From Membranipora membranacea (taxonomy: Eukaryota > Bryozoa > Gymnolaemata > Cheilostomatida > Membraniporidae): a DNA stretch of 64,000 nt. Below are positions 1 to 50,090 of the stretch, one piece after another. A program made the translations under genes and the position numbers. Where the stretch lies: the NCBI GenBank assembly GCA_914767715.1, contig OU612071.1:21573681-21637680 (forward strand). The letters are read 5' to 3'. The notes under the pieces were generated by a model, which was not told the origin of the DNA, made no database searches, and worked only from the letters and a program-made list of their open reading frames with translations. How positions within the stretch are numbered: position 1 is the first letter of the stretch; every line of letters begins with the position of its first letter.

Positions 1-3000
1 CGCTGCGAAGGGCTGGGGCCCTCCTTGCGCGTTCAGCTTCCCCCGCATCGAATCTGGGCCACGCTGCGAAGGGCTGGGGCCCTCCTTGCGCGTTCAGCTT
101 CCCCCGCATCGAATCTGGGCCACGCTGCGAAGGGCTGGGGCCCTCCTTGCGCGTTCAGCTTCCCCCGCATCGAATCTGGGCCACGCTGCGAAGGGCTGGG
201 GCCCTCCTTGCGCGTTCAGCTTCCCCCGCATCGAATCTGGGCCACGCTGCGAAGGGCTGGGGCCCTCCTTGCGCGTTCAGCTTCCCCCGCATCGAATCTG
301 GGCCACGCTGCGAAGGGCTGGGGCCCTCCTTGCGCGTTCAGCTTCCCCCGCATCGAATCTGGGCCACGCTGCGAAGGGCTGGGGCCCTCCTTGCGCGTTC
401 AGCTTCCCCCGCATCGAATCTGGGCCACGCTGCGAAGGGCTGGGGCCCTCCTTGCGCGTTCAGCTTCCCCCGCATCGAATCTGGGCCACGCTGCGAAGGG
501 CTGGGGCCCTCCTTGCGCGTTCAGCTTCCCCCGCATCGAATCTGGGCCACGCTGCGAAGGGCTGGGGCCCTCCTTGCGCGTTCAGCTTCCCCCGCATCGA
601 ATCTGGGCCACGCTGCGAAGGGCTGGGGCCCTCCTTGCGCGTTCAGCTTCCCCCGCATCGAATCTGGGCCACGCTGCGAAGGGCTGGGGCCCTCCTTGCG
701 CGTTCAGCTTCCCCCGCATCGAATCTGGGCCACGCTGCGAAGGGCTGGGGCCCTCCTTGCGCGTTCAGCTTCCCCCGCATCGAATCTGGGCCACGCTGCG
801 AAGGGCTGGGGCCCTCCTTGCGCGTTCAGCTTCCCCCGCATCGAATCTGGGCCACGCTGCGAAGGGCTGGGGCCCTCCTTGCGCGTTCAGCTTCCCCCGC
901 ATCGAATCTGGGCCACGCTGCGAAGGGCTGGGGCCCTCCTTGCGCGTTCAGCTTCCCCCGCATCGAATCTGGGCCACGCTGCGAAGGGCTGGGGCCCTCC
1001 TTGCGCGTTCAGCTTCCCCCGCATCGAATCTGGGCCACGCTGCGAAGGGCTGGGGCCCTCCTTGCGCGTTCAGCTTCCCCCGCATCGAATCTGGGCCACG
1101 CTGCGAAGGGCTGGGGCCCTCCTTGCGCGTTCAGCTTCCCCCGCATCGAATCTGGGCCACGCTGCGAAGGGCTGGGGCCCTCCTTGCGCGTTCAGCTTCC
1201 CCCGCATCGAATCTGGGCCACGCTGCGAAGGGCTGGGGCCCTCCTTGCGCGTTCAGCTTCCCCCGCATCGAATCTGGGCCACGCTGCGAAGGGCTGGGGC
1301 CCTCCTTGCGCGTTCAGCTTCCCCCGCATCGAATCTGGGCCACGCTGCGAAGGGCTGGGGCCCTCCTTGCGCGTTCAGCTTCCCCCGCATCGAATCTGGG
1401 CCACGCTGCGAAGGGCTGGGGCCCTCCTTGCGCGTTCAGCTTCCCCCGCATCGAATCTGGGCCACGCTGCGAAGGGCTGGGGCCCTCCTTGCGCGTTCAG
1501 CTTCCCCCGCATCGAATCTGGGCCACGCTGCGAAGGGCTGGGGCCCTCCTTGCGCGTTCAGTATTCGCATCGAATCTGGGCCACGCTGCGAAGGGCTGGG
1601 GCCCTCCTTGCGCGTTCAGCTTCCCCCGCATCGAATCTGGGCCACGCTGCGAAGGGCTGGGGCCCTCCTTGCGCGTTCAGCTTCCCCCGCATCGAATCTG
1701 GGCCACGCTGCGAAGGGCTGGGGCCCTCCTTGCGCGTTTCAGCTTCCCCCGCATCGAATCTGGGCCACGCTGCGAAGGGCTGGGGCCCTCCTTGCGCGTT
1801 CAGCTTCCCCCGCATCGAATCTGGGCCACGCTGCGAAGGGCTGGGGCCCTCCTTGCGCGTTCAGCTTCCCCCCGCATCGAATCTGGGCCACGCTGCGAAG
1901 GGCTGGGGCCCTCCTTGCGCGTTCAGCTTCCCCCGCATCGAATCTGGGCCACGCTGCGAAGGGCTGGGGCCCTCCTTGCGCGTTCAGCTTCCCCCGCATC
2001 GAATCTGGGCCACGCTGCGAAGGGCTGGGGCCCTCCTTGCGCGTTCAGCTTCCCCCGCATCGAATCTGGGCCACGCTGCGAAGGGCTGGGGCCCTCCTTG
2101 CGCGTTCAGCTTCCCCCGCATCGAATCTGGGCCACGCTGCGAAGGGCTGGGGCCCTCCTTGCGCGTTCAGCTTCCCCCGCATCGAATCTGGGCCACGCTG
2201 CGAAGGGCTGGGGCCCTCCTTGCGCGTTCAGCTTCCCCCGCATCGAATCTGGGCCACGCTGCGAAGGGCTGGGGCCCTCCTTGCGCGTTCAGCTTCCCCC
2301 GCATCGAATCTGGGCCACGCTGCGAAGGGCTGGGGCCCTCCTTGCGCGTTCAGCTTCCCCCGCATCGAATCTGGGCCACGCTGCGAAGGGCTGGGGCCCT
2401 CCTTGCGCGTTCAGCTTCCCCCGCATCGAATCTGGGCCACGCTGCGAAGGGCTGGGGCCCTCCTTGCGCGTTCAGCTTCCCCCGCATCGAATCTGGGCCA
2501 CGCTGCGAAGGGCTGGGGCCCTCCTTGCGCGTTCAGCTTCCCCCGCATCGAATCTGGGCCACGCTGCGAAGGGCTGGGGCCCTCCTTGCGCGTTCAGCTT
2601 CCCCCGCATCGAATCTGGGCCACGCTGCGAAGGGCTGGGGCCCTCCTTGCGCGTTCAGCTTCCCCCGCATCGAATCTGGGCCACGCTGCGAAGGGCTGGG
2701 GCCCTCCTTGCGCGTTCAGCTTCCCCCGCATCGAATCTGGGCCACGCTGCGAAGGGCTGGGGCCCTCCTTGCGCGTTCAGCTTCCCCCGCATCGAATCTG
2801 GGCCACGCTGCGAAGGGCTGGGGCCCTCCTTGCGCGTTCAGCTTCCCCCGCATCGAATCTGGGCCACGCTGCGAAGGGCTGGGGCCCTCCTTGCGCGTTC
2901 AGCTTCCCCCGCATCGAATCTGGGCCACGCTGCGAAGGGCTGGGGCCCTCCTTGCGCGTTCAGCTTCCCCCGCATCGAATCTGGGCCACGCTGCGAAGGG

Positions 3001-6000
3001 CTGGGGCCCTCCTTGCGCGTTCAGCTTCCCCCGCATCGAATCTGGGCCACGCTGCGAAGGGCTGGGGCCCTCCTTGCGCGTTCAGCTTCCCCCGCATCGA
3101 ATCTGGGCCACGCTGCGAAGGGCTGGGGCCCTCCTTGCGCGTTCAGCTTCCCCCGCATCGAATCTGGGCCACGCTGCGAAGGGCTGGGGCCCTCCTTGCG
3201 CGTTCAGCTTCCCCCGCATCGAATCTGGGCCACGCTGCGAAGGGCTGGGGCCCTCCTTGCGCGTTCAGCTTCCCCCGCATCGAATCTGGGCCACGCTGCG
3301 AAGGGCTGGGGCCCTCCTTGCGCGTTCAGCTTCCCCCGCATCGAATCTGGGCCACGCTGCGAAGGGCTGGGGCCCTCCTTGCGCGTTCAGCTTCCCCCGC
3401 ATCGAATCTGGGCCACGCTGCGAAGGGCTGGGGCCCTCCTTGCGCGTTCAGCTTCCCCCGCATCGAATCTGGGCCACGCTGCGAAGGGCTGGGGCCCTCC
3501 TTGCGCGTTCAGCTTCCCCCGCATCGAATCTGGGCCACGCTGCGAAGGGCTGGGGCCCTCCTTGCGCGTTCAGCTTCCCCCGCATCGAATCTGGGCCACG
3601 CTGCGAAGGGCTGGGGCCCTCCTTGCGCGTTCAGCTTCCCCCGCATCGAATCTGGGCCACGCTGCGAAGGGCTGGGGCCCTCCTTGCGCGTTCAGCTTCC
3701 CCCGCATCGAATCTGGGCCACGCTGCGAAGGGCTGGGGCCCTCCTTGCGCGTTCAGCTTCCCCCGCATCGAATCTGGGCCACGCTGCGAAGGGCTGGGGC
3801 CCTCCTTGCGCGTTCAGCTTCCCCCGCATCGAATCTGGGCCACGCTGCGAAGGGCTGGGGCCCTCCTTGCGCGTTCAGCTTCCCCCGCATCGAATCTGGG
3901 CCACGCTGCGAAGGGCTGGGGCCCTCCTTGCGCGTTCAGCTTCCCCCGCATCGAATCTGGGCCACGCTGCGAAGGGCTGGGGCCCTCCTTGCGCGTTCAG
4001 CTTCCCCCGCATCGAATCTGGGCCACGCTGCGAAGGGCTGGGGCCCTCCTTGCGCGTTCAGCTTCCCCCGCATCGAATCTGGGCCACGCTGCGAAGGGCT
4101 GGGGCCCTCCTTGCGCGTTCAGCTTCCCCCGCATCGAATCTGGGCCACGCTGCGAAGGGCTGGGGCCCTCCTTGCGCGTTCAGCTTCCCCCGCATCGAAT
4201 CTGGGCCACGCTGCGAAGGGCTGGGGCCCTCCTTGCGCGTTCAGCTTCCCCCGCATCGAATCTGGGCCACGCTGCGAAGGGCTGGGGCCCTCCTTGCGCG
4301 TTCAGCTTCCCCCGCATCGAATCTGGGCCACGCTGCGAAGGGCTGGGGCCCTCCTTGCGCGTTCAGCTTCCCCCGCATCGAATCTGGGCCACGCTGCGAA
4401 GGGCTGGGGCCCTCCTTGCGCGTTCAGCTTCCCCCGCATCGAATCTGGGCCACGCTGCGAAGGGCTGGGGCCCTCCTTGCGCGTTCAGCTTCCCCCGCAT
4501 CGAATCTGGGCCACGCTGCGAAGGGCTGGGGCCCTCCTTGCGCGTTCAGCTTCCCCCGCATCGAATCTGGGCCACGCTGCGAAGGGCTGGGGCCCTCCTT
4601 GCGCGTTCAGCTTCCCCCGCATCGAATCTGGGCCACGCTGCGAAGGGCTGGGGCCCTCCTTGCGCGTTCAGCTTCCCCCGCATCGAATCTGGGCCACGCT
4701 GCGAAGGGCTGGGGCCCTCCTTGCGCGTTCAGCTTCCCCCGCATCGAATCTGGGCCACGCTGCGAAGGGCGGGGGCCCTCCTTGCGCGTTCAGCTTCCCC
4801 CGCATCGAATCTGGGCCACGCTGCGAAGGGCTGGGGCCCTCCTTGCGCGTTCAGCTTCCCCCGCATCGAATCTGGGCCACGCTGCGAAGGGCTGGGGCCC
4901 TCCTTGCGCGTTCAGCTTCCCCCGCATCGAATCGGGGCCACGCTGCGAAGGGCTGGGGCCCTCCTTGCGCGTTCAGCTTCCCCCGCATCGAATCGGGGCC
5001 ACGCTGCGAAGGGCTGGGGCCCTCCTTGCGCGTTCAGCTTCCCCCGCATCGAATCGGGGCCACGCTGCGAAGGGCTGGGGCCCTCCTTGCGCGTTCAGCT
5101 TCCCCCGCATCGAATCGGGGCCACGCTGCGAAGGGCTGGGGCCCTCCTTGCGCGTTCAGCTTCCCCCGCATCGAATCGGGGCCACGCTGCGAAGGGCTGG
5201 GGCCCTCCTTGCGCGTTCAGCTTCCCCCGCATCGAATCGGGGCCACGCTGCGAAGGGCTGGGGCCCTCCTTGCGCGTTCAGCTTCCCCCGCATCGAATCG
5301 GGGCCACGCTGCGAAGGGCTGGGGCCCTCCTTGCGCGTTCAGCTTCCCCCGCATCGAATCGGGGCCACGCTGCGAAGGGCTGGGGCCCTCCTTGCGCGTT
5401 CAGCTTCCCCCGCATCGAATCGGGGCCACGCTGCGAAGGGCTGGGGCCCTCCTTGCGCGTTCAGCTTCCCCCGCATCGAATCGGGGCCACGCTGCGAAGG
5501 GCTGGGGCCCTCCTTGCGCGTTCAGCTTCCCCCGCATCGAATCGGGGCCACGCTGCGAAGGGCTGGGGCCCTCCTTGCGCGTTCAGCTTCCCCCGCATCG
5601 AATCGGGGCCACGCTGCGAAGGGCTGGGGCCCTCCTTGCGCGTTCAGCTTCCCCCGCATCGAATCGGGGCCACGCTGCGAAGGGCTGGGGCCCTCCTTGC
5701 GCGTTCAGCTTCCCCCGCATCGAATCGGGGCCACGCTGCGAAGGGCTGGGGCCCTCCTTGCGCGTTCAGCTTCCCCCGCATCGAATCGGGGCCACGCTGC
5801 GAAGGGCTGGGGCCCTCCTTGCGCGTTCAGCTTCCCCCGCATCGAATCGGGGCCACGCTGCGAAGGGCTGGGGCCCTCCTTGCGCGTTCAGCTTCCCCCG
5901 CATCGAATCGGGGCCACGCTGCGAAGGGCTGGGGCCCTCCTTGCGCGTTCAGCTTCCCCCGCATCGAATCGGGGCCACGCTGCGAAGGGCTGGGGCCCTC

Positions 6001-6173
6001 CTTGCGCGTTCAGCTTCCCCCGCATCGAATCGGGGCCACGCTGCGAAGGGCTGGGGCCCTCCTTGCGCGTTCAGCTTCCCCCGCATCGAATCGGGGCCAC
6101 GCTGCGAAGGGCTGGGGCCCTCCTTGCGCGTTCAGCTTCCCCCGCATCGAATCGGGGCCACGCTGCGAAGGCT
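1..6173. repeat. 61-bp satellite array, about 101 head-to-tail copies, truncated at left window edge
   Basis: A 61-bp monomer beginning CGCTGCGAAGGGCTGGGGCC repeats without interruption and ends at a partial unit near 6173. The monomer is about 69% G+C with six CpG sites, in sharp contrast to the AT-rich flank. Copies are almost identical. Exceptions are a damaged unit near 1561-1567 (net loss of 3 bases), single-base insertions near 1738 and 1868, a T-to-G change near 4770, and a block of 21 consecutive copies (4934-6154) with TCGGGG in place of TCTGGG. Each unit contains the short inverted repeat AGGGC-TGGG-GCCCT. The plus strand has no stop codon in any frame, which creates three overlapping 2,000-residue open frames. 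These are artefacts of the repeat: 61 is not a multiple of 3, so all three frames read the same 61-residue cycle. No ribosomal or other known satellite was recognised. Confidence 0.97.
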
Positions 6174-6550
6174 GCGAAGAGTACAAAATACTTTCTTGAA
6201 GGCACCTATAACCCTTAGACTCGTCTGCGCTGATATAGGCACAGCCACAATCCACTTACTATAAATGTCTACAAGAATGCAGTACAATTTATTTCCGAAC
6301 ACCATAACGTCAGATGTGATCTCAATCCAAGGCCCCATTGGCAGTGAGGTTTCATGACAAGGCTCATGTTTAACTCTGATGTCTTTGATACAAACATCAT
6401 ATTGAGCCACCAGACCACCTGTTGAGTGAGTGCATGTGCTCTATCAATATAGGCACTACGCAACCTAGCAGGTATGTAAAGTCTGTCAGCAAACATAAGA
6501 CAACCTTTGTGCACAGACAACATATGACGACAAGTATATAAACACCTCAA
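6174..6550 (-). pseudogene. Ty3/Gypsy-type retrotransposon integrase remnant, frameshifted
   Basis: Minus-strand conceptual reading shows two overlapping pieces. The upstream piece (6269-6550) has the integrase zinc-finger region signature GCLMFADRLYIPARLR, then loses its histidines and frame. The downstream piece (to about 6174) has a core-like stretch with a D in WIEITSD and a second in VDIYSKWIVAVPI, as in Gypsy integrase catalytic cores. The third acidic residue is missing because the satellite array begins immediately downstream. No LTRs, protease or reverse transcriptase are seen nearby. It is a dead fragment with at least one frame break, truncated at the satellite junction. Family assignment is from motif spacing only. 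Confidence 0.7.
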
Positions 6551-37436: not shown

Positions 37437-39010
37437 CTTGACAGAGTACACCGTAATTCGCTCCACCATATTAGCCCTATCTCCGTCAGGGAATTTCCAT
37501 GCTTCTCAATTTCAGCTAAATGATCCAGAGACACAGATATATTAAGGTAGTTACACATGTGGTAAGGTTTTCTGAAATCCTCACGCCAGTCCAGGCATTT
37601 AAGATGGCAGTAGGTATTCTGGGAGTCTTTGGTATGGTTATAGTGCCAGAATCTTTCGCCCTGTATTTTCGATAAGGCATCACCACCCCTAACAGCTCAT
37701 TTCCCTCTTTTTTGAACAGCTCGTCACAGACATAACATTTTTTGGCACGGCAATCAGTACTAAATCTGAAGAAGACATGTGACTGGTGTTTGCTCTCAAA
37801 TGTGCAGAATTGAGAAGCATGGCTTGCTTTCTTTCTCTTCCTCCTTCCTTCCATCACTTGTCATTGAGGGGTATTTAAATACGGATGCTAGAATTCTTTT
37901 TCTCTTTTCACTACTGAGCTTGCAAAACTCCTGAGGATCATATGACATTCTACTGTACTTCGATTTAAGCTTGAACAAACCCTTACTCAAAACTGCTCTT
38001 TCACAATTGTTTTTTTGGTTATTTCCCTGCTTTTCCCACTCCTCTATTATTACCTTTGGAGACGATTTTCTGGTGAGATTTCGTTTGAGCTCCTTGTTTA
38101 CTGATTCATTGCTGTTATTAGTTGTCATTAAGCCCAGCAGCCTGTCTATTCTCCCTAACCAAGCTTTTGAATGATTTTGCTTGATATCTAATAAACCATT
38201 TAGTAATATCGGGGTTTATGGAGTTCCATGATGACAGCAGAGCTTCCAACACCTCTTCAAACTCTGTTTCAGTGTTACTGTCTAGAAGGGTGGTGAACAT
38301 GTCATAATGAATTTTGTTATATTCAGCGTCACATAACTTTGATTTTAAGTACGACTCTACATTGTCTTTGAGGTGTTAAAAACATACAATGTGCTGTAGT
38401 AAAGGCATGTGAATTTTGAACCCATTCACAGTCTCAAGTGCCCTATCTGATCCCAAGAAACGGATATGCTTTAATTTAGAGTTCAAGTTCACAATGCTAC
38501 TAGCAAAATGACGATAACTATGCTCGTTGTGTTCAGTGTGAATCAATGTGGGACCCAAGAGAGTTGGTTCAACCTTAGTTACCGTGTGTATGAGCAGAGG
38601 GTGACGTATTGTAGTGGGTGTAACAAAGTACTGTCCAATATTGTACGTCATGTCAATTCCGAGGATGCCAGCAGATTCTCCAGTGCAAAATGTTCAATCA
38701 AATGAATTTGTGTATCAGTGGCATGAGTAATGGCCAACTGACACTTTCCTGTCATGCATATGTTAGCTATAGGACTGCCCTCTCTTTCTTTTTGATCGTT
38801 TATGGCCCATAGTAGCTCATCAACCCACAGCTTATCTTTCACAGAACATTTCAAGTTATATATTAGTGTACAGTTTTTAAACTCCCCAGATGTATCGGTC
38901 ATAGTGAGAAGGTTATTATTGTTCATATTTTGTTGAATGATTTCCCTCGGGGCCATGTTACTCTCAATTCCCATCCTCCCCTTATCCAGCAAACTAGGCC
39001 TAGTTCGGGC
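37437..39010 (-). pseudogene. MULE-type transposase, C-terminal two thirds, disrupted
   Basis: This is the downstream part of a gene whose upstream part lies at 44648-45131. Reading from 39010 down: SLLDKGRMGIESNMAP; NLKCSVKDKLWVDELLWA; ILGIDMTYNIGQYFVTPTT (first catalytic D); FLGSDRALETVNGFKIH (second D); HLKDNVESYLKSKLCDAEY; TNNSNESVNKELKRNL (catalytic E); KKCYVCDELFKKEGNELL; and a tail near SLDHLAEIEKHGNS ending at a possible donor at 37436. All three DDE-type residues are present. Lesions are a frameshift near 38655-38670, an in-frame TAA at 38376-38378 (probably CAA to TAA), and frameshifts near 38155, 37850 and 37555. The family resembles MULE-superfamily transposases abundant in cnidarians, molluscs and lancelets. 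The gene was also split by a 5.6-kb insertion. Confidence 0.8.
39002..39010. repeat. Left target-site duplication (9 bp)
   Basis: AGTTCGGGC directly precedes the left terminal inverted repeat and recurs exactly at 44648-44656, directly after the right one. Confidence 0.93.
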
Positions 39011-39478
39011 TAGTCTAAGTGCTCAGACTCCAAGGCGCAGGGAGTTACTTGCGCAAGCTATCAAACTCCTCTCCCCTTCTCCGTCTGAGCAAAAACCTAT
39101 TATCTCAACAGGCTCACAATTCAGAGTTGCCTCCTCAATTTCACAAAATCATCAAGAAGCAACTCTGAAAATTAAAAATAGCCTTAGGCACATAACTTGC
39201 AGCAAACTTAAGTTGTAGAACTTAAATTATTTTTGAGTGCACTCAACCGTGCAAAGATATGATTGCTATATGGATCACAGTTATACAAGACAGTAACATA
39301 TTCTTTGATAACATACACATCACAGAGTATAAGGATATATAGGATATAGGGATATACAGAGGGGATGCTTCAATGATAGTCAAAGTGTCTATGGTCTATG
39401 GCACAATTTTCCCCCACCAAATCATCTCTATATGTTATGGTGTCATTTTTCTCGCAGACATCCGTACCTTTGATGGGC

Positions 39479-39856
39479 CATAATTCAGTCTGTATTTATC
39501 CTAAAGACTGATTTCCAACTTTGTTGAAATGTCCAACTTTCAAGCTATACACCATATTATTGTCATTTTTTGCAAAGATACATAGGCTAAGAGCTATCTG
39601 CATTTGTAAAATGAGTTTTATCATATAGATTATCATGTGACAATTGATAAACTTCTGGTCATCAAAATTAGGAAATTTCCGTGTATTGACCCAAGCCACA
39701 TGTAAGTCTATATGATATAACTCATTTTAAAAACACAGATAGCTCATAGCCTATGTATCCTAGCAAAAAATTACAACAATATGGTGTATAGCTTGAAGGT
39801 TGGACATTCCAACAAGTTGGAAATCAGTATTTAGGATTAATACAGAATGAATTATG
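39479..39856. repeat. Foldback element with ~150-bp arms
   Basis: The sequence from 39479 (CATAATTCAGTCTGTATTTA) to about 39630 is the imperfect reverse complement of about 39707-39856, around a loop of roughly 75 bp. The arms differ by scattered substitutions, so the insertion is older than the enclosing transposon's identical TIRs would suggest. No coding capacity. Confidence 0.85.
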
Positions 39857-40257
39857 AAGATGAAGTTTTTGAATACATATCAATCAACCTCTCAATCTGA
39901 TGACCCAAGATATGCTTGCTTCATAAATAAAGGAAATATATTGCAAACATGCACATTGTCATACATGTACATCAGCAAGTTTTGATATATATGACAATAT
40001 GTGAGTTTATTTAGCACAGCCTGTAACCAGATAGCTCTATTGTGAAGTATTCAAATGGTATTCCAAAACAAGGGCAAATGACTTATAAATATTAAGAAGC
40101 GCAGTATGTCCAGTAGTCAAAATAGGCGTATGCACAAGGCCGAGTACCAAATAAAAAAAAATGTTCAGAGTAAAGTCTTTCTTGAGACAGTAATAAAAAA
40201 CATGGAGAATATGGCCCTGGAATGGTATGCATATACCTGACCTAGTAATGTAAATCA

Positions 40258-40330
40258 TAGTCTAAGTGCTCAGTCTCCAAGGTGTAGGGAGTGTAACTCC
40301 CTGCACCTTGTAGTCTGAGCACTTAGACAA
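40258..40330. mobile_element. 73-bp palindromic mini-element (MITE) sharing the large transposon's ends
   Basis: It starts TAGTCTAAGTGCTCAG and is a near-perfect palindrome (arms 40260-40292 and 40296-40328, 3-nt loop). The arms match the first ~36 bases of the 88-bp TIR. The flanks TGTAAATCA (40249-40257) and TATGAATCA (40331-40339) agree at 7 of 9 positions, consistent with an eroded 9-bp target-site duplication. It is most simply an internal-deletion derivative mobilised by the same machinery. Confidence 0.75.
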
Positions 40331-41727
40331 TATGAATCAATGTTCTGAGCAAGGGCACTCGAGACAATAACTTAACACAGAGGATAGGGCACTGGATTGG
40401 TACCACCTTGGTACGCATCTACATGACTGAGTAATATTAGTCTATGCACTATACAGGATATGCTTAGATTTTTCCTCTCATTACTTCTACATTAATCTTG
40501 CTTCGTATAGCCTAGGATCCAATAATGCACATTGTATGACCTTTTGTCAATGTCATGAATGACCGCCCTTATTCAAAATGAATGAAATTCTGGCTGACAT
40601 TTTCTTCACTACTTGGCAGTGAATATCTCTGCTCATGGGTATTTCCCAAACATGAGGCTACTTTTCCCGGAGTCTGACTGGAAAACTCTCATACCTAGAG
40701 CAATATAGTAGGTGGCATGAATAGAAATCAATAGATATTGCAGTTTTAGTGCTCCACTTGATTAACTTATAACACTCAAGGGCAGACAACTCCAGCAAGA
40801 TCCTGCATTGTTCTCAGACTTTCTCTCGCCCGGTGGGCCGTCGGACGAGGGGCAAAAGTCTGGTGGGCTCAGACTAGAGTAATATAAGTCAATGTTCTTA
40901 GTAAGGGCACTTGATACTAAACATCCTCTGAATTGGAGCAGCTGATATCTCCAAATGATGCTACTGATAGCGAGTCACTTAAACTGTCTGTCATAAGACT
41001 ACTATCTGGGTTTTTACATGGCATGAGATATCAGGGTCACAAACATCACAGCAAGCGCATAGCTCTTCATGGTCTGATCTAATTTACGTCCATTTGCCAT
41101 TCTAGGATATGTTAATATAAAAGAATGTGCAACAACTTCGCACTCCCTAGAAGCACGCCCAGATTCCTGGAAACGCACCAGCAGTGGTGGGAACCACGTA
41201 ATGAATGACATATTCAATGTTTCTCAAATTGAGCCCCATTGATAGACTGCTAGAACAGAGAGATACTTTAACATGACCAGATGAATTGCCAAGGTCAGCC
41301 AATATTCTTGACTTGATGTTGCTGTCTGTTATCAAGTGGTACATAACCACTCTGGCGGTGGTAGAACCTACAGGTTGATGCGTGTTAAGTGTGATGTACT
41401 GGTAAGCATCCACTAAGGTGTTGATGTTTGTGAAGAATATCATAATTCTAGGAAGGTCTAGCAGTCTAGAATTAATCAGGTCACACAACCATTTAAAATC
41501 TGCAAGAATGTTCCCTGTAACTCTCACTGTGTGATAGCTACAAATGAAACAAAAAATCTAGAATGAATAAGACATAACTTGTATTTTTTTTATGAAAATG
41601 AAGCTGAATTGAGACGTTGACAACCGCAAGGTTGACACCATCACCAGCTGAACTGAGAGTAACTGCAAGTGTTGGCCAATGTCAGCACTTAAAAATTGAA
41701 CAGGAAAACATTGCGACACACTGGGAA

Positions 41728-41845
41728 TAGTCTAAGAGCTCAGACTCCAAGGCGCAGGGAGTTACCTGCGCCAGCTATCAAACTCCTCTGTTTGATAGTT
41801 TGATAGATGGCACAGGTAACTCCCTGCATCTTGGAGTCTGAGCAG
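41728..41845. repeat. Hairpin related to the transposon TIR
   Basis: The left arm (41728 onward, TAGTCTAAGAGCTCAGACTC) matches the first ~60 bases of the 88-bp TIR. The right arm (about 41793-41845) is its inverted partner but lacks the last ~10 terminal bases. It probably represents a decayed mini-element inside a RecQ intron. Confidence 0.7.
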
Positions 41846-42345
41846 ATATTAACATCCACGTGTGGAACTAGCTAGATGCTCCCGACTTTAAGCATTAAAA
41901 ATTATACACACTTAAAATAATATGACTTACATCATATTCTTCTTATTGATAGAAACTTGACATAGTCTATGGTATCATCAGAGGCAGTGGCTGACATACA
42001 CACGAAAGGCACCCTCCTCAGAAAGGAGTGCAAGCTGTAGAGTCTGCCATATGCACTCCGAAATGTGTCGTCCTTTCCTTTCTCAGCACCCCTAAAATAG
42101 CATGAAATATGAATGTAAGCACATGTCTTTATTTACTTTGAGTGTCTGGCTAGGGGAAAGTACTATTGGTATTGAAATTTAATCCAAGTGGTGTATATTT
42201 AAAATGGTCCCAGTAATATTAGTTTTCCACTTTAAACCAGATGAAATGTCATCAGTTGCCTATGTATGGTCTTTCTCAGCTCCATTGACCCCCATAGCTG
42301 CCATCATCTACATTTACATTTGAGAGATCATATTGAATATGGGGA

Positions 42346-42402
42346 TAGGAGTTTGATAGCCTGGTGCCACTAACTTCCTGTGCCTTGGAGTCCGAGCACT
42401 TA
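42346..42402. repeat. Partial TIR-related copy
   Basis: GGAGTTTGATAGC followed by CTTGGAGTCCGAGCACTTAA corresponds to the inner-to-outer half of the right TIR with several substitutions. There is no paired arm. Confidence 0.6.
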
Positions 42403-44647
42403 ATTAGGCCTGATAATTGTCAGTTATTATGATTTAATTATGGCCCTTTGTGTTTTCTTCTCAATTTACAAAATCTAAATATGTGAATATTTCAATGCCT
42501 GTTATAGCTGGCTTCTGTCTGGATTTTCATTATTTTCACTCCCGAAGCAGAAGGATCAAGGAGGTCATATAGATTTGCTTATTTACAATGTATCATGGGC
42601 ATAATATTTGAATACTGCATGATGAGAAAGAATAACTACCTTTGCTCAACGATATGGAATTCGTCGATGAACACAGTCTTCACATTCAAACCCTCCTGTA
42701 ACGCCTTTCTCCCACTGCCATCGAGAATACTCTTCGGGCTCGTAAATATGAACACCGCGGCGGCAGAGAGATGAATTGCCGAGAGCTTGGGTAGATTCTT
42801 AATCATTGACACCAATGGCATTACAATTGGGAATTGGGATGGAGCATTCTGGAAAAAAAATGGGGATATGGATCACAAGATTAAGTGAACAATATCCAAC
42901 CAAAAATTCAAATGCTTTAAATGCTCATCAACAAAATATGCGAGGGTGGCCAAGGGTTCAAATTTCATTTCTGGTTTCAGACGTTGGGCCCATCAAGCTG
43001 TGAAGGTTCAAACTGGTGTCATCACTGTAATATAAGGGGCAACAGTATCTTAACCCAACAGTATTAATATTAACCTATCACTTCGATTTGAATCATCAAC
43101 AGCTGACAACCATCTGAGCCCTAGCAAGTAAACATGCCTATGTTCAGACTAAATTAATACCTTATTCAGACATCGAAAATGAGACATAAAAAAAACGCCT
43201 CCACCCTGCATACAAAGATGACTAAAATAAAATATTTGGAATTTATTCATCTTTTAGTCCTTTGTTATCATTAAAATGAAGCATCCTGAGCAAAAAATGG
43301 CAATGAAATGGTGCTGCTACAAAATCAGTTTTGGTGTAAAATTTAAAGTAATGAACCTCTGAACCAAAAATATTGAAGGAGTTTGTCATCTAGAACAAAG
43401 TATTAATTTGGTGTGGCCTAACCTTGACTAAACCATTATAACCATAACTAACCTTCTGAACAGTTGAGCTTAACGCATGAGTCAATCTCCTCACACATGA
43501 GCCCACAGAATCCTATGAAACAAAAATGGTGGTTCAAATCAAGATCGATGCGGACAACAACTATTTGAACAAGGTGTCTGTATGATGGAATTTTGAGCAC
43601 TGAGGTGAGGTTGTCGTGGGACTTGGATACAAATGAAATGATGATGTAGTCCATCTCACTTGCATATGTATAGTACGCTAGAGTACAAATTCTACACAAA
43701 GTCAAAAGCTATGTTATTCTGGGAGCAATGAAATGGATCGTATCTAGGTAGGAGAGATGATAGTATTAGTAAGCTAGGTGCCAAGGCACCAAGAATTCAA
43801 CATATGTAGACTATTGTATGTATTGGATGAGCGAGAGAGACTAAAAAAAACTAAAAATAAATATGTTATTTATTGTTAACATTCAGGGAAAGCTGGTTCT
43901 TGTCACTTACCTCCTTGTTTGATTGTGACTGCTGGGGTTTGTACAACTGAGTATCATGGTCATACAGGAAGGGTGCTGCTAGGTATAGAAGAGATTTCCC
44001 AAACCGGTTGGAGCAATGAATATGGGATCCATTCCTTAGTTAGGCTTTTGTTTAAAAAATATGAATTGATATGTTTAAGTTTGTTTGAATAATGTCACTT
44101 ATTTCAGAACTATCCATCTTCCTTCATATCATTATATTACTGTTCAGATTTTCCATATCAGTGAGTGTAAAACAACAAAATAAAGGTAAAATGACCCTGT
44201 AATAATTGTCACAGTTAAATTGTTCCTGACCCTCCTGCATTCTTGGCCAGAAAGTGGGCCCTGCTGCTGTAAATAAGAAAAGGTCAAGGTTGTCATATGT
44301 AAATACTGGATTGTCTCCCTTGACTATTTACACTAGAAGCTGTCACAATATGGGAGTTATCTTCTCTCAGTAGCTTTAAAACTCAATAACTGGTTTTCCT
44401 TGATCTTCCGCAAAAAGAGAGGTATCCCATGTTGTTCAGAGGGGACTAATCTCTATGAATACATGCAAGTTTTATTGGGGAAGATCAAAGTTTCAGAGTT
44501 GTCATTGCTTACAGTGCAAATTGCTCTGAACAAAGGGAAGACAATCCCACTATATCCCCAGGTTTTTGCTCAGACGGAGAAGGGGAGAGGAGTTTGATAG
44601 CTTGCGCAAGTAACTCCCTGCGCCTTGGAGTCTGAGCACTTAGACTA

Positions 44648-44656
44648 AGTTCGGGC
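44648..44656. repeat. Right target-site duplication (9 bp)
   Basis: AGTTCGGGC, identical to 39002-39010, starts at the first base after the right TIR. Confidence 0.93.
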
Positions 44657-45131
44657 ATACATTTCTGATTTTTTGCTGTTCCCATGGGGCTGTTCAACAA
44701 ATTTTTCCCCATTAAACATATAGCAGATCATAGCCATATCTCCAGAAGAATGAGTAAGACGCATTATGGGTCGTGTCATTTTGATGTTACTTTTTTGAGC
44801 GTAATATGTTGTGCGAAACAGTAATGGCCCAGTGTCACACTCCTTGATACAGCCAACTTTCCCGATAGCATATCCATAGTCTTTGTTAGAACAATTCAAC
44901 CAGGTGGGTAAACCATTAGCAGCAAGGTCCTTTGCGGAATCTAAACGAGCTACATCAATTATAAAGGATGAATTACTGACGCATCGATATGGTACAGTGC
45001 TACAAACTTTTTCTCTGTTGACTCCTCGACTTGCATTATATAATATATCGACTTGGCTCATCCGATCTGTAATGGCTGATGCTTTGTAAATGGGTGTAGC
45101 TGGATCATCATTTAGATACGTCTCAGCATCA
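44657..45131 (-). pseudogene. MULE-type transposase, N-terminal part, split from its C-terminus by the RecQ element
   Basis: The minus-strand exon opens after an acceptor CTCATTATTGCAG at 45132. An ATG at 45181 lies in the preceding intron frame and is less likely to be the start. It reads DDAETYLNDDPATPIYKAS, DILYNASRGVNREKV, FIIDVARLDSAKDLAANG, NKDYGYAIGKVGCIKE, TGPLLFRTTYYAQKSN, HSSGDMAMICYMFNGE and HGNSKKSEMYART. The apparent stop is supplied by the transposon end (ACT-TAG). Without the insertion the frame runs through the 9-bp duplication into the block at 39001 (ART then RPSLLDKG). The H-G-N-S-K followed by R-T-x-P-S-L pattern is what I recall from this transposase family between the N-terminal region and the catalytic core. 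Confidence 0.75.
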
Positions 45132-45181
45132 TCTGCAATAATGAGACATCCAGTTATAATCAGCTGGATTGTCCGGATCAT

Positions 45182-46084
45182 GCGCTTTTGTATTGACGAC
45201 CAGGGTATGACAAGTCACTCAAAGTGCTGTAACCATACACGTATCATAAATCAATATCTATATTTATTATTGCTAAAACTATGGCCGTTGCCGAAATCAT
45301 TATAGCAATCAGTGATATATACTGCAGAAATTGGACCTTGGAAAAATTTATTTGATCAAACCATTAAGTGCTCAAAACACATTGAAGGAGTGGAGCTAGC
45401 TTTAAATAGATCCAAAACTTGGATTTAGGCAATGGTCATATTCATCCCTGTTCACGATATTCACATAATTGAAGGCTCGCTTACCGGTAACTGATTTTGT
45501 ATCACTATTTAATGTTATGTCAATACAGCCATCCATTGACACCGATCTGACGCAAACACAATCGTGCATGTCACACATTGTAAAAAAAAGCCAGGTGATG
45601 GTGAGAACCGTTCAAATGGACTACAACAAAACCTATGTCTACTTAAAATGTGCAATCGGCTGCGGGCAGCATTAAAGCATTTTAGGTCGGTAAAGTATAT
45701 GCATAAGATTTTTTATGCCACACCCATCTAGAATATGCACATGTGTTCAAAGCAAAGCATATCTGGCAGCTTTCTTTGGTACTGCGTTATAGTGTCCTGA
45801 CCTTCCCTACTCGACTGCCGTATATGCCCATTTCTTATGAGCGCTGGAAAAAACGCTGTTAATAATATATATATTATTATATTCTGATAATTTATTCGTG
45901 AACATGTAGGAACATAGAGCATTGGTTAAGCATTATGATGTTGCATCATGAATTGTCCAGAGGTGCCTTTCATGAATGGTCAAGTATTCATGTAATCACA
46001 ACTGTTTTGATTTGATCAAGTCAAACTATTTTGTCTTTAGTTAAAATCTCAACACTAAATTGTAAAAATAATCCCTTGGTTTAC
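45182..46084. other. Non-coding gap
   Basis: No exon was recognised. Further exons of the zinc-finger gene whose donor is at 46084 are expected downstream of it but were not found here. Confidence 0.45.
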
Positions 46085-46632
46085 CTAGCTGCACACGATT
46101 TGACGGCATGCCCAAGCTTCATGGCCAGGCTCGGTATAGACTCTTTCTTTTCTGAGTTGAATTTGCAGAGATTCCGTACTCCTTTGACAACTGAATGGAA
46201 GTTTTCTGGTCGAATGAGCTCTATCATGGTTGTCCTGGTCTCATTTCTGTCAATTCGGACCTGGTTTAGGAGCTTTGCCAGCTGCCTCGTGGGGTTTGAT
46301 GCTAGATGAGGTTTCTTGTAGTTATGTCGCTCGTATTTCTCCTGCCCATGCTGGAGTATTATGGCATGTTGTTTTACATTGTCTGTGAACTTGTCTGGTT
46401 CAAAAGAATCTTGGATATCTCTTGCAAACACAGCATGGTACATGTCATCGCTGCTTCTTTTATCAAATTTGCCTTCGCCGATACATTTATTGGCATGTTT
46501 CTTCAGAGTGTTGTGATGATACCAACCACGGCAACCGTAACATGGACGATAGTTTTCCGGCTGGTAACTGTGAGATGAGCTTCGTCGCTCCACAATGAGG
46601 CCCCCTTCCCCTCCTTCAATGACCTTCTGGTT

Positions 46633-48517
46633 GGATGGATGGATTTATTACTATCATAGACAAAATTTGTCACGAAATACGTTGTTAATACTGACAAGAA
46701 AGAAAAACATGGAAAAATCAGATCTCTGTTGTATAAAAAGTTTTTTAGAATAGTATATTATTAAGTGTATGTATGAGATGTCTTAAAAAGCTGTCTCTAC
46801 CCCATGTACCCCGATATTTAACGGTGCGGTAGCGACCTGAGGGGCATTTAGTTAGAAAGTCATTGATAAAGTGCTCTTCATCGTGTATGTACCGTAGTCC
46901 AAGTGTCTTGATCTGGTTGGCCACCAGAGCATCTATATCGGGGTGCTCAATCCCTAACTTGGCGGCATCTTTAAATATTTTGCGTAAGGACTTCTTGTCG
47001 CTTGCATGGATGCTTGTAAAAAGTATGGGGAGACAGTAAGTGATGAGGGATACAATAAAACTCTTGAATAACATATGAGAAAGGGGCTTTGAGCTATAGT
47101 ATGCAAAATTTTTCACAATATACATGCGTTGAGATGCAGTAGTCACTATGGATTGCACATGATCATGATAGCGGAGTTTATCGTCAACAGTAGGCCTAAC
47201 ACCAAGGTATTTTACTTCGTCACAAAAATCAACTTCCGTGCCGTTAAGGATAAGAGTAGGGGTAATGGGCCTAACAAGCTGAGTAGAAAACATCATTTCT
47301 TGACTCTTGGAGGCGTTTAACAATAGGCTTAAATCACAACATTGCTTTGAAATTCTACTAATTTCATCAAGATAGGCACTAAGATCTGATTGATTTGATA
47401 TGCATCCAATTATACAGGTGTCGTCTGCGTATTTAATGACAGTTATATTGCTCAAGTCTGAGGTAATCCTATTGGTATATATTGAAAACAAAAGTGGAGA
47501 TAAACAGCAACCCTGGGGAGTGCCAGTGTTGGTTATGATGGGTTTTGAGATATTGCCATCTACTATTGTTCTTTGGGTGCGATTCGTTAGGAAGCTGTAT
47601 ATCCATTCAGTGACATTGGAGTCGAGATGTGATAGTTGCGAGATTAAGTCTGGAACATGTAATGTGTTGAATGCAGAAGAAAAGTCAAGGAACAGACACC
47701 TGGCATAATTTGAAGCTTTCTTGTCAATGAAATCTGTGATGGTAGTAGTGAGGCATAAAAGAGCATCTTGAGTTGAGCGGTTTGCACGATAAGCAAACTG
47801 AAGGTGGTCCATAGCTGTATGAGTAATAATGTAATGTTTAACAAGTCTCTCCATCATTTTGCACAGGCTACTGGTGAGCGCTATTGGTCTGTATTGTTTA
47901 AGTTGATTGGGATTCTTAACTTTGGGTAGGGGTTTGATAATGGCCGATTTCCAGGAAGTAGGGGTTGACTTAGACGTGATAGATAAATTGAACAGTTTCG
48001 TTATGACAGGCGCCAGTTGATAGGCACATAGCTTAAGTACTTTGGGGATGAGGCCATCAGGGCCTGGACCTTTCCTCGAGCTCAACGATTTCAACTGCTT
48101 TAAGACAGTAGCCTCTTCTATTTCTAAAGGTGGTGCTATGGTGGCGTTGTTATTGATGTCAGGACGGTCAGCGAGAGGCTTCTCAAATCTTGTGAAGAAG
48201 GTGTTTAGGTCATCTGAGTTGAATGGATTTTGTTGAGTTGGTTTTGGGCTATTAGTAGGTAATCCACTAATCTTTTTAATGTCAGTCCAGGCTTTAGCAG
48301 GTTCTTTTGCTAGGTTATGCTGTATTTTCCGAGAGTATTCTTGTTTGGCTTGTTTAATAGATTTAGTGATGTCGCGTTTGAGTTTGTTGTAGAGTTTACG
48401 GTTACCAGTTTTGTGGGCCTGTTGTTTCTCATCGATCATCTCCGATATTTGTTTATTGATCCATGGTTTTTGATTTGTGCAAACTCTGACGCTCTTCTCT
48501 GGTATACTTGTGGATAC
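46633..48517 (-). mobile_element. 5'-truncated non-LTR retrotransposon (CR1/Jockey-Rex-like)
   Basis: The insertion lies between the two halves of a single exon of the flanking zinc-finger gene. Its 3' end carries a short (ATCC)3 tail near 46633-46645, as in LINEs that end in simple repeats. The 5' end falls in the linker just before reverse transcriptase (VRVCTNQKPWINKQISE), so endonuclease and ORF1 are missing. At most a 2-base overlap (AA) of target sequence is seen, so no long target-site duplication can be claimed. Confidence 0.85.
46745..48439 (-). CDS. LINE reverse transcriptase, intact 564-codon open frame
   Basis: One uninterrupted frame encodes a complete reverse-transcriptase domain of a non-LTR retrotransposon. 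It polymerises cDNA from element RNA at a nicked target. Blocks in order are KGPGPDGLIPKVLK; YRPIALTSSLCKMMERLV; FAYRANRSTQDALL; CLFLDFSSAFNTL with the first catalytic Asp; GTPQGCCLSPLLFSIYT; KYADDTCIIG, the Y-A-D-D catalytic pair; LLLNASKSQEMMF; and VKYLGV, followed by a C-terminal helical region (ASDKKSLRKIFKDAAKLG). The open frame continues upstream of the first Met (48439) to the truncation at 48517. The lack of lesions contrasts with most coding blocks in the window and implies a young insertion. The clade call (CR1/Rex/Jockey group) rests on motif wording only. The missing 5' half means it cannot move on its own. Confidence 0.93.
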   Translation of the reverse strand: MIDEKQQAHKTGNRKLYNKLKRDITKSIKQAKQEYSRKIQHNLAKEPAKAWTDIKKISGLPTNSPKPTQQNPFNSDDLNTFFTRFEKPLADRPDINNNATIAPPLEIEEATVLKQLKSLSSRKGPGPDGLIPKVLKLCAYQLAPVITKLFNLSITSKSTPTSWKSAIIKPLPKVKNPNQLKQYRPIALTSSLCKMMERLVKHYIITHTAMDHLQFAYRANRSTQDALLCLTTTITDFIDKKASNYARCLFLDFSSAFNTLHVPDLISQLSHLDSNVTEWIYSFLTNRTQRTIVDGNISKPIITNTGTPQGCCLSPLLFSIYTNRITSDLSNITVIKYADDTCIIGCISNQSDLSAYLDEISRISKQCCDLSLLLNASKSQEMMFSTQLVRPITPTLILNGTEVDFCDEVKYLGVRPTVDDKLRYHDHVQSIVTTASQRMYIVKNFAYYSSKPLSHMLFKSFIVSLITYCLPILFTSIHASDKKSLRKIFKDAAKLGIEHPDIDALVANQIKTLGLRYIHDEEHFINDFLTKCPSGRYRTVKYRGTWGRDSFLRHLIHTLNNILF

Positions 48518-50090
48518 TTGTGCTTGAAGTATCCATCCTTTCTCAATCCATCAAGTAGATCATCCCGTTGTCGACTTATAATACATAATAACACTTACAA
48601 ATACTTAATTGAAACATATTATGCTGATAGGTTATTCCCCTAAAGAACTGCATGTGGCAGACCTAAATTCTAATCTAATAACTCTGTGTACTGAATATAT
48701 GGGGCTAAACAACCATTATTTTACCTAGTATTTGGTTGCACGTTACTGGTCAATCAGCAACAGCAAAGCATGGTACTTAGGGTTACAAACTATGCATACA
48801 CACACAGAGATTTATTTTCCTTCTCTTTTGTACACTTCACTGAGTTATTAACCTCAATTTCATCGACTTCAGGCGTCACCTCTTGTTCCCCTTCAGATTT
48901 ATCTTCTTTGCGCTCTTTAGCCTTCACTGTACCTTTCGCTGGCAGCTTCTAAATGATATAAATTGATAAAATAAAATGAGTTCTCAATTGCATAATCAAC
49001 TCATTGCCGATGAATCTCCACCCTTCAGCAAAGTTAATCCAACCAAATTCAACATTGTCAAAAAGAATTCAGACCTAAGACAATGAGATCAGATCAACAA
49101 ACCTACCTCCGCTGTTTACTTCCACCATCGCTGTAGTATTTGTCGCTACCATCTGATGGCTCTGCCATTTCATATTCAGAATAATCTGAGTCAATGTCTG
49201 AATCATCGGACACTTAGAGAAAATGTACAGTTTGGCTTGCTTGATTAGGTAAGAAGTATGATTTTACTACATGATGGTTATCTTGGAAAAAAACTCATGT
49301 TAAAACTTACAACAGACTCTTTCAGGTTCATGGACTGAAAGCCAATAATATACCAATCCGAACCAAGTATATGTTCGTGATTGCTACCTCCAGATCTATT
49401 TTCCAGCGTCTCAAACGCGTCTCTGATGGTTGCTGACAGATCTTCAAGTTCATCCTGTTCTTCGAAGTCGAAAAGTGATAGTGAACCTAAAACAAATTGT
49501 CAAAGGTCTTTTTATTCTGCATTTCTTCAAATTGTCAGAATAGTCTAGTTTGAATTTTTGTTGTAACAAAAATTATCCACAGGAATTATAATTTTTGAGG
49601 AGGCTTATTCAAACCTACCGGGTGAAGGCAGTCCCGCTGCTTCAACATCATCGAATTCACAAGCTAATGACTGGCCTAAAATAGATGACATTGTTATGGG
49701 ATCAACTAAGTATAGTTGTTTGAATCCACGCCAACTAACGTAAAAGTGTACACATGATAGAGATATTATGTAAAATTTAAACTTTAGTATGCATTTTTTT
49801 GAGATACGGTAGTAATACTGATTTTATACAGCTACCTGTTTTGCTGCTCTGGATGGGTTCAAGTTGAGGCCCCTGGAAAGGCTGACATAAAGTATTGAAG
49901 CCTGTAAAAATTAACACCATGGATTAAGAGAATTTATTTACAAAACTCTACTTGGGAACTCATGCAACACACATGCATTCTTAGCCTAGGCTTGAAGCCA
50001 ACCAGTGATTTATGTTTGTGGTGGTTGGCTTAGGATAGAACAGGTGAAAATGAAAAATGTGTCACACTACAAGTCCATTAATGGATTGGA

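Follow-up and report, generated by a model that had tools for sequence, protein, structure and literature searches.

The stretch of DNA considered here, hereafter the window, comprises 64,000 nucleotides of chromosome 7 (C7:21573681-21637680) of the bryozoan Membranipora membranacea, whose assembly amounts to 339 Mb in 18 contigs. It holds a 5,637-bp transposon whose recognisable gene encodes a RecQ-like helicase, and this element is very probably a shortened, RecQ-only relative of a 12,171-bp element with matching terminal inverted repeats (TIRs), an open four-exon RecQ gene, and a DUF6589 gene that would encode its likely transposase. The parts of the window element, including its target-site duplication (TSD), are listed below in window coordinates.

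39002..39010, no strand: left TSD copy, 9 bp, AGTTCGGGC
39011..44647, minus strand (gene orientation): RecQ-only transposon copy, 5,637 bp
39011..39098, plus strand: TIR, 88 bp, starting TAGTCTAAGTGCTCAGACTCC
40994..41536, minus strand: RecQ exon 4 (motifs IV-VI plus the cysteine region; frame broken within motif VI, some 25 residues lost)
41956..42090, minus strand: RecQ exon 3 (motif III, SATA; 3' end out of frame)
42639..42848, minus strand: RecQ exon 2 (motif II, DEFH)
43911..44003, minus strand: remnant of RecQ exon 1 (holds motif I, with a frame break)
44560..44647, minus strand: second TIR, 88 bp, perfectly reverse-complementary to the first, on the RecQ 5' side
44648..44656, no strand: right TSD copy, 9 bp, AGTTCGGGC

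The window element and its RecQ gene

A first-pass annotation of this DNA had proposed a DNA transposon that ends in perfect 88-bp TIRs and is flanked by a perfect 9-bp duplication of its target, and every part of that description holds: the identity between the ends spans exactly 88 bp and is lost immediately past bp 88, the termini read TAGT..ACTA, both duplication copies are exact, and further copies exist in the genome. When the element and one AGTTCGGGC are excised in silico, the two broken halves of a flanking frame join into a single minus-strand open reading frame (ORF) of 306 aa, and the element was therefore inserted into a pre-existing open frame, now split as follows.

44657..45214, minus strand: interrupted ORF, upstream half
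38648..39001, minus strand: interrupted ORF, downstream half

A Pfam scan of this 306-aa frame gave no match; it may have the look of a Mutator-like element (MULE), and an older mobile element may include both this frame and the ORFs at 37796-38215 and 46081-46644.

The recognisable cargo is, as first proposed, a RecQ-like helicase, here placed on the minus strand with exon borders set by eye from splice-site-like sequence. Read across its frame breaks, the composite protein matches Pfam Helicase_C (1.3e-8) and, slightly short of the curated cut-off, DEAD (2.5e-5), and its top solved-structure match is E. coli RecQ (2.5e-9). A search of a protein collection with it returned 14 proteins, eight of them close (P0001-P0008), which have open frames and a serine-rich tail in common and are 48-68% identical to exon 4 of the window copy. 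The window frame is broken at three places (motif I, the end of exon 3, and motif VI), and the RecQ gene of this copy is dead. Since the motif VI break is present in seven of the nine copies of the chromosome-7 group described below, and the stretch is missing in the other two, the break is most likely older than the multiplication of these copies. Inside the window element we agree with the first reading that no transposase is recognisable, the Pfam scan having covered only part of the element's own frames, and a comparison of the DUF6589 composite with the window copy gave no match.

Relatives in the genome and a second gene

The 88-bp TIR has at least 56 matches in the genome, with 40 of 432 candidates scored, and the association of these ends with RecQ and a 9-bp duplication, proposed from the window alone, recurs throughout the ten complete pairs fetched first (the window and nine others): RecQ is present in all ten, as is a 9-bp TSD, exact in nine and with one mismatch at C7:22.09. 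These ten represent five independent sites (AGTTCGGGC, GCATTTTGT, TGCCTGTAT, CATGACAAG, and TGTATGCGG). The AGTTCGGGC site is common to at least nine chromosome-7 copies, six complete pairs and three one-ended, whose flanks are 0.96-0.98 identical to those of the window over 400 bp, with the exception of one side of C7:22.59 (0.86); the chromosome-7 sister copies are thus not separate transpositions, and we read them as one insertion multiplied together with its surroundings. The multiplied segment extends over C7:21.6-25.0 Mb, where two of the nested insertions are inverted.

With a sister family included, RecQ lies inside 15 of the 15 complete kb-scale TIR pairs listed (11 of the window family, 4 of the sister family), and 9-bp TSDs of varied sequence were read at all seven independent full-length sites. 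It is thus not the case that the TIRs never accompany RecQ, which the first-pass annotation had named as an outcome that would speak against it; the small copies that fold back on themselves (snap-back elements) lack room for the gene. Seven further single 88-bp ends were read inward for about 8-10 kb, with RecQ found in four (L043, L044, L047, and L048). A 13-kb copy at C7:7.41 was considered as an autonomous form and rejected, its extra DNA holding a Copia-like polyprotein by eye, and a search of the 15-kb copy at C7:24.97 for DUF6589 found none. The TIR was also searched for in phages, with no match.

The full-length relative lies on chromosome 4 (C4:27834027-27846197; 12,171 bp) and is flanked by an exact TSD, CTGTATGTT; its TIRs are identical to those of the window at 88/88 positions on the left and 64/64 on the right. 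Its RecQ gene has four predicted exons, all open, with 457 codons under borders that we set, and by eye the motifs TGFGKS, DEFH, SATA, and QESGRAS. On the opposite strand, convergent to RecQ, lie the DUF6589 exons of a second gene, located with the DUF6589 composite of the sister family, so that a longer relative encoding a candidate transposase, which the first-pass annotation had suggested looking for, is now at hand. The window copy has the RecQ half in common with this element at 84-91% identity. Behind RecQ in the chromosome-4 copy (L044:4347-5077) there is also an array of repeats of about 50-60 bp, which matches one stretch of the RecQ-only copy on C6.

The same arrangement is found in the sister family, represented by an 11,846-bp element (C4:7529492-7541337) that has perfect 101-bp TIRs and an exact TSD, AGACGGCTC, and that sits within a frame looking Gypsy-like by eye. 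Its RecQ is about 50% identical to that of the window family and its TIR (TAGTTAAAGAGCTCTAACTCC...CTCCGTTAGAG) is clearly akin to the window TIR (TAGTCTAAGTGCTCAGACTCC...CTCCGTCTGAG), and RecQ and DUF6589 (PF20231, E = 9.5e-27) again occupy opposite strands. A search with the sister TIR, in which 40 of 86 candidates were scored, lists four complete kb-scale pairs of 7,297-11,938 bp, with a RecQ match in all four and the TSD read in one, as well as many snap-back elements of about 100-120 bp. A chromosome-3 copy, 97% identical, has lost 4.6 kb including the upstream DUF6589 exons (junction B1L 8458|13103) and kept the downstream ones, which shows that a form without the full DUF6589 gene arises by internal deletion; RecQ-bearing copies that lack a full DUF6589 gene occur in both families. 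A third family (L054 and L055, 98.9% identity along 7 kb) likewise has RecQ and DUF6589 in convergent orientation, and a search of its ends gave no convincing TIR.

DUF6589 (PF20231) was matched by all three composites built from full-length relatives and is the only transposase candidate found. We infer that it is likely the transposase on two grounds: no other gene besides RecQ was found common to both full-length copies, and invariant acids surround its C2H2 finger. The invariant motifs run in the order DNVD, GD, ADFHxQM, C2H2 finger, LLE, with the finger between ADFH and LLE and the catalytic residues putative; the invariant acids include D194, D375, and E577 in alignment numbering. Searches of the protein collection, viral contigs, and genome contigs gave no DUF6589 homologue, and a DUF6589 scan of 14 control genomes gave no match. 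Within the bryozoan genome, a scan with one RecQ exon gave 63 matches (69/69 candidates scored) that merge to 37 loci, and a Pfam scan for DUF6589 gave 19 matches (31/31 candidates scored) that merge to 15 loci, a lower bound, as the scan missed the DUF6589 genes of both full-length copies. Eight of these 15 loci lie within 6 kb of RecQ, convergent in every case; loci placed at random on these chromosomes have 0.05 such neighbours on average and never more than 3 in 20,000 trials. Of the 37 RecQ loci, 27 have a mobile context (15 lie inside complete TIR pairs, 4 no more than 8 kb from a single TIR, and 8 next to DUF6589), in support, for this genome, of the first-pass proposal that a mobile carrier underlies RecQ amplification.

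The pattern of substitution differs between the two forms of the element. Among six RecQ-only copies, the ratio of nonsynonymous to synonymous change (dN/dS) in RecQ exon 4 lies at 0.88-1.60 for all but one of the 15 pairs, that one having no synonymous change, whereas the six ratios of these copies to the full-length chromosome-4 copy are 0.20-0.43. Between families, synonymous differences are saturated in RecQ (proportion pS 0.80, against a nonsynonymous pN of 0.33) and in DUF6589 exon 2 (pS 0.80 against pN 0.36). RecQ would thus drift about neutrally in RecQ-only copies and be constrained between full-length lineages, a contrast that marks the window copy as a passenger form and suggests that RecQ works for the transposon.

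The TIR family also extends well beyond the kb-scale copies. Its 25-nt tip has 731 genome matches at up to two mismatches, against 0 for a reversed control; the 100 places listed comprise 28 snap-back elements, each an inverted pair of 84-142 bp (56 places in all), both ends of the C2:26.94 copy, and 42 places without a partner. When five snap-back elements were examined for a TSD, three had an exact 9-bp one (L028, L029, and L044:9316-9429), L044:8020-8102 had one at 7/9, and none was seen at L046; the incomplete L030 was left out of this scoring. Snap-back copies of near-equal size are clustered at C2:20.8-22.5 Mb, as if a larger unit had been repeated. Similar repeats are nested in the window element:

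40258..40331, no strand: internal snap-back TIR copy (with its right end set at 40330, the flanks form a degenerate 9-bp repeat, 7/9 by eye)
41728..41844, no strand: internal snap-back TIR copy, right tip lost
42341..42402, minus strand: internal TIR-like arm
39479..39856, no strand: imperfect palindrome, 378 bp, 81% self-complementary and not TIR-related, probably a nested foldback element of a second family

Elsewhere in the window, positions 1-6264 form a tandem array of about 6.2 kb with some 69% guanine and cytosine, all three plus-strand frames being open, against about 34-41% outside it. On the minus strand, a 601-aa frame at 46745-48550 has a reverse transcriptase domain (RVT_1, E 4.7e-33) and probably belongs to a non-LTR (long terminal repeat) retrotransposon.

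Placement among known transposons and competing explanations

With its helicase and 9-bp TSD, the window element finds its closest known counterpart in AcademH and is most likely of that kind, a placement made by helicase and TSD length with AcademH taken from citing descriptions. According to PMC10045372, AcademH carries a helicase and makes TSDs of 9 or 10 bp, and the TSD difference within Academ is tied to the presence of a helicase or a nuclease; PMC10799480 likewise covers AcademH as the helicase-bearing lineage of Academ. The likeness consists in the helicase gene, which is RecQ in all 15 complete pairs, and in the TSD, which is 9 bp at all seven independent sites. Relative to AcademH, what sets ours apart would be its bryozoan host and its RecQ-only form. 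A 2020 paper by Kojima, going by its title, reportedly deals with AcademH in animals and fungi.

Other kinds resemble the element in part. The fungal KolobokH has RecQ as its second gene, as here, and in Kolobok-1_CCri RecQ lies on the complementary strand. In Kolobok a zinc finger separates the second acid from the E (PMC9587614), and this likeness of a late finger in the catalytic region holds only if the DUF6589 acids are catalytic. Despite RecQ, membership of Kolobok or KolobokH fails, as its TSD is the 4-bp TTAA and its ends are 5'-RR..YY-3', whereas the elements here end in TAGT..ACTA and their 9-bp TSDs vary in sequence. Rehavkus has a 9-bp TSD and TIRs of 26-400 bp; its PHD finger had no match among the families listed for the three DUF6589 composites at E up to 10.

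Several points weigh against the account of a shortened relative of a RecQ and DUF6589 transposon. The comparison with AcademH is by description, with the helicase type, transposase family, and gene orientation of AcademH outside it. Beyond DUF6589 itself and C2H2 fingers, the composites gave no convincing Pfam, NCBIfam, or solved-structure match, and fold prediction of the 318-aa DUF6589 exon from four sequences reached a mean local confidence (pLDDT) of 38 and a predicted template-modelling score (pTM) of 0.28. The chromosome-4 copy may not be active, because the last of its DUF6589 exons contains one in-frame stop, and it is missing about 1 kb of right subterminal DNA present in the RecQ-only copies, which therefore descend from a related element and not by simple deletion of the chromosome-4 copy itself. 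The dN/dS pairs are not independent, and as the RecQ-only pairs differ by 0-3 synonymous changes, neutrality is a fit to the data and not a proof. RecQ was not seen within about 8-10 kb of three 88-bp ends (L042, L045, and L046); with 40/432 and 40/86 TIR candidates scored and 100/731 tip matches listed, RecQ-free kb-scale copies may exist among the rest. Lastly, seven of the 15 DUF6589 loci have no RecQ match nearby, and no mobile context was found for 10 of the 37 RecQ loci.

The best-surviving alternative, which we regard as rather unlikely, is that the element represents a superfamily distinct from Academ, in which DUF6589 forms a transposase lineage of its own, gained RecQ independently, and makes the same 9-bp TSD by chance. 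It draws on the motif order of DUF6589, for which a similarly placed zinc finger is reported for Kolobok in PMC9587614, and on the openly licensed literature searched, in which DUF6589 is not mentioned and no tie to Academ was found. Against it stands the close fit of AcademH as partially described, with a helicase, a TSD of 9 or 10 bp, and occurrence in animals and fungi.

It is less likely again, and in our judgement improbable, that a third, unrecognised gene is the transposase, with DUF6589 and RecQ each in an accessory role. Catalysis by DUF6589 is indeed a deduction, and the frame-by-frame comparison of the full-length copies was confined to the minus strand of their right halves. The matches in that comparison are, however, the DUF6589 exons and their out-of-frame echoes, and RecQ and DUF6589 exons cover most of the 12,171-bp and 11,846-bp copies.

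Very unlikely is a MULE that captured a host RecQ in the manner of a Pack-MULE, with the MULE transposase supplied in trans. The first-pass annotation had taken the 9-bp duplication to point to MULE-type integration, and MULE or MuDR elements do have TSDs of 8-11 bp and long TIRs, ranges that the 9-bp TSD and TIRs of 88-101 bp here fall within (PMC6446971; the word helicase is absent from this survey). That reading is nevertheless not supported, since the only transposase candidate in the full-length relatives is DUF6589, a MULE transposase domain is found in none of its three composites at E up to 10, and AcademH fits better; MULE membership is accordingly rejected. Nor does capture agree with two families, about 50% identical in RecQ and homologous in their TIRs, that both pair RecQ with DUF6589, or with the constraint on RecQ between families, unlike that of a captured passenger. 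The ends here begin with TAG, whereas most arthropod MULEs begin with G/C bases according to PMC13359780. That a host RecQ duplicate came by accident to lie between two unrelated foldback repeats, as the great abundance of the TIR family and its frequent small snap-back elements might allow, is virtually discounted and rejected by the RecQ count of 15/15 and the TSD count of 7/7.

A two-gene system and its meaning

Under the account of a RecQ and DUF6589 transposon, the DUF6589 protein would bind the TIRs, excise the element, and join its ends to a 9-bp staggered cut, while the RecQ of the full-length element might unwind the ends or the target or aid repair. The RecQ-only copies and the snap-back elements, as miniature inverted-repeat transposable elements (MITEs), would be mobilised in trans; the window copy would need helper proteins because its RecQ is dead. 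A wider proposition, on which we are evenly divided, is that DUF6589 is the transposase of a widespread helicase-assisted class with RecQ as its obligatory partner and not its cargo, that most RecQ expansions of marine invertebrates are the visible half of such elements, and that the TIRs spawn perfect snap-back MITEs. We did not find the pairing of DUF6589 with RecQ described in the openly licensed literature, a search that lay outside Repbase and Dfam.

What began as an odd RecQ fragment thus becomes a two-gene transposon system whose ends, TSD, and full-length, deleted, and MITE versions all occur in a single genome. Within a probable AcademH-type member, the new parts are the DUF6589 assignment and the dynamics of the RecQ-only copies. 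A function is thereby proposed for DUF6589, the part that a helicase plays in cut-and-paste transposition becomes testable, and a testable cause is offered for RecQ gene amplification, in that the mobility of the element would explain the high number of RecQ-like genes in this genome.

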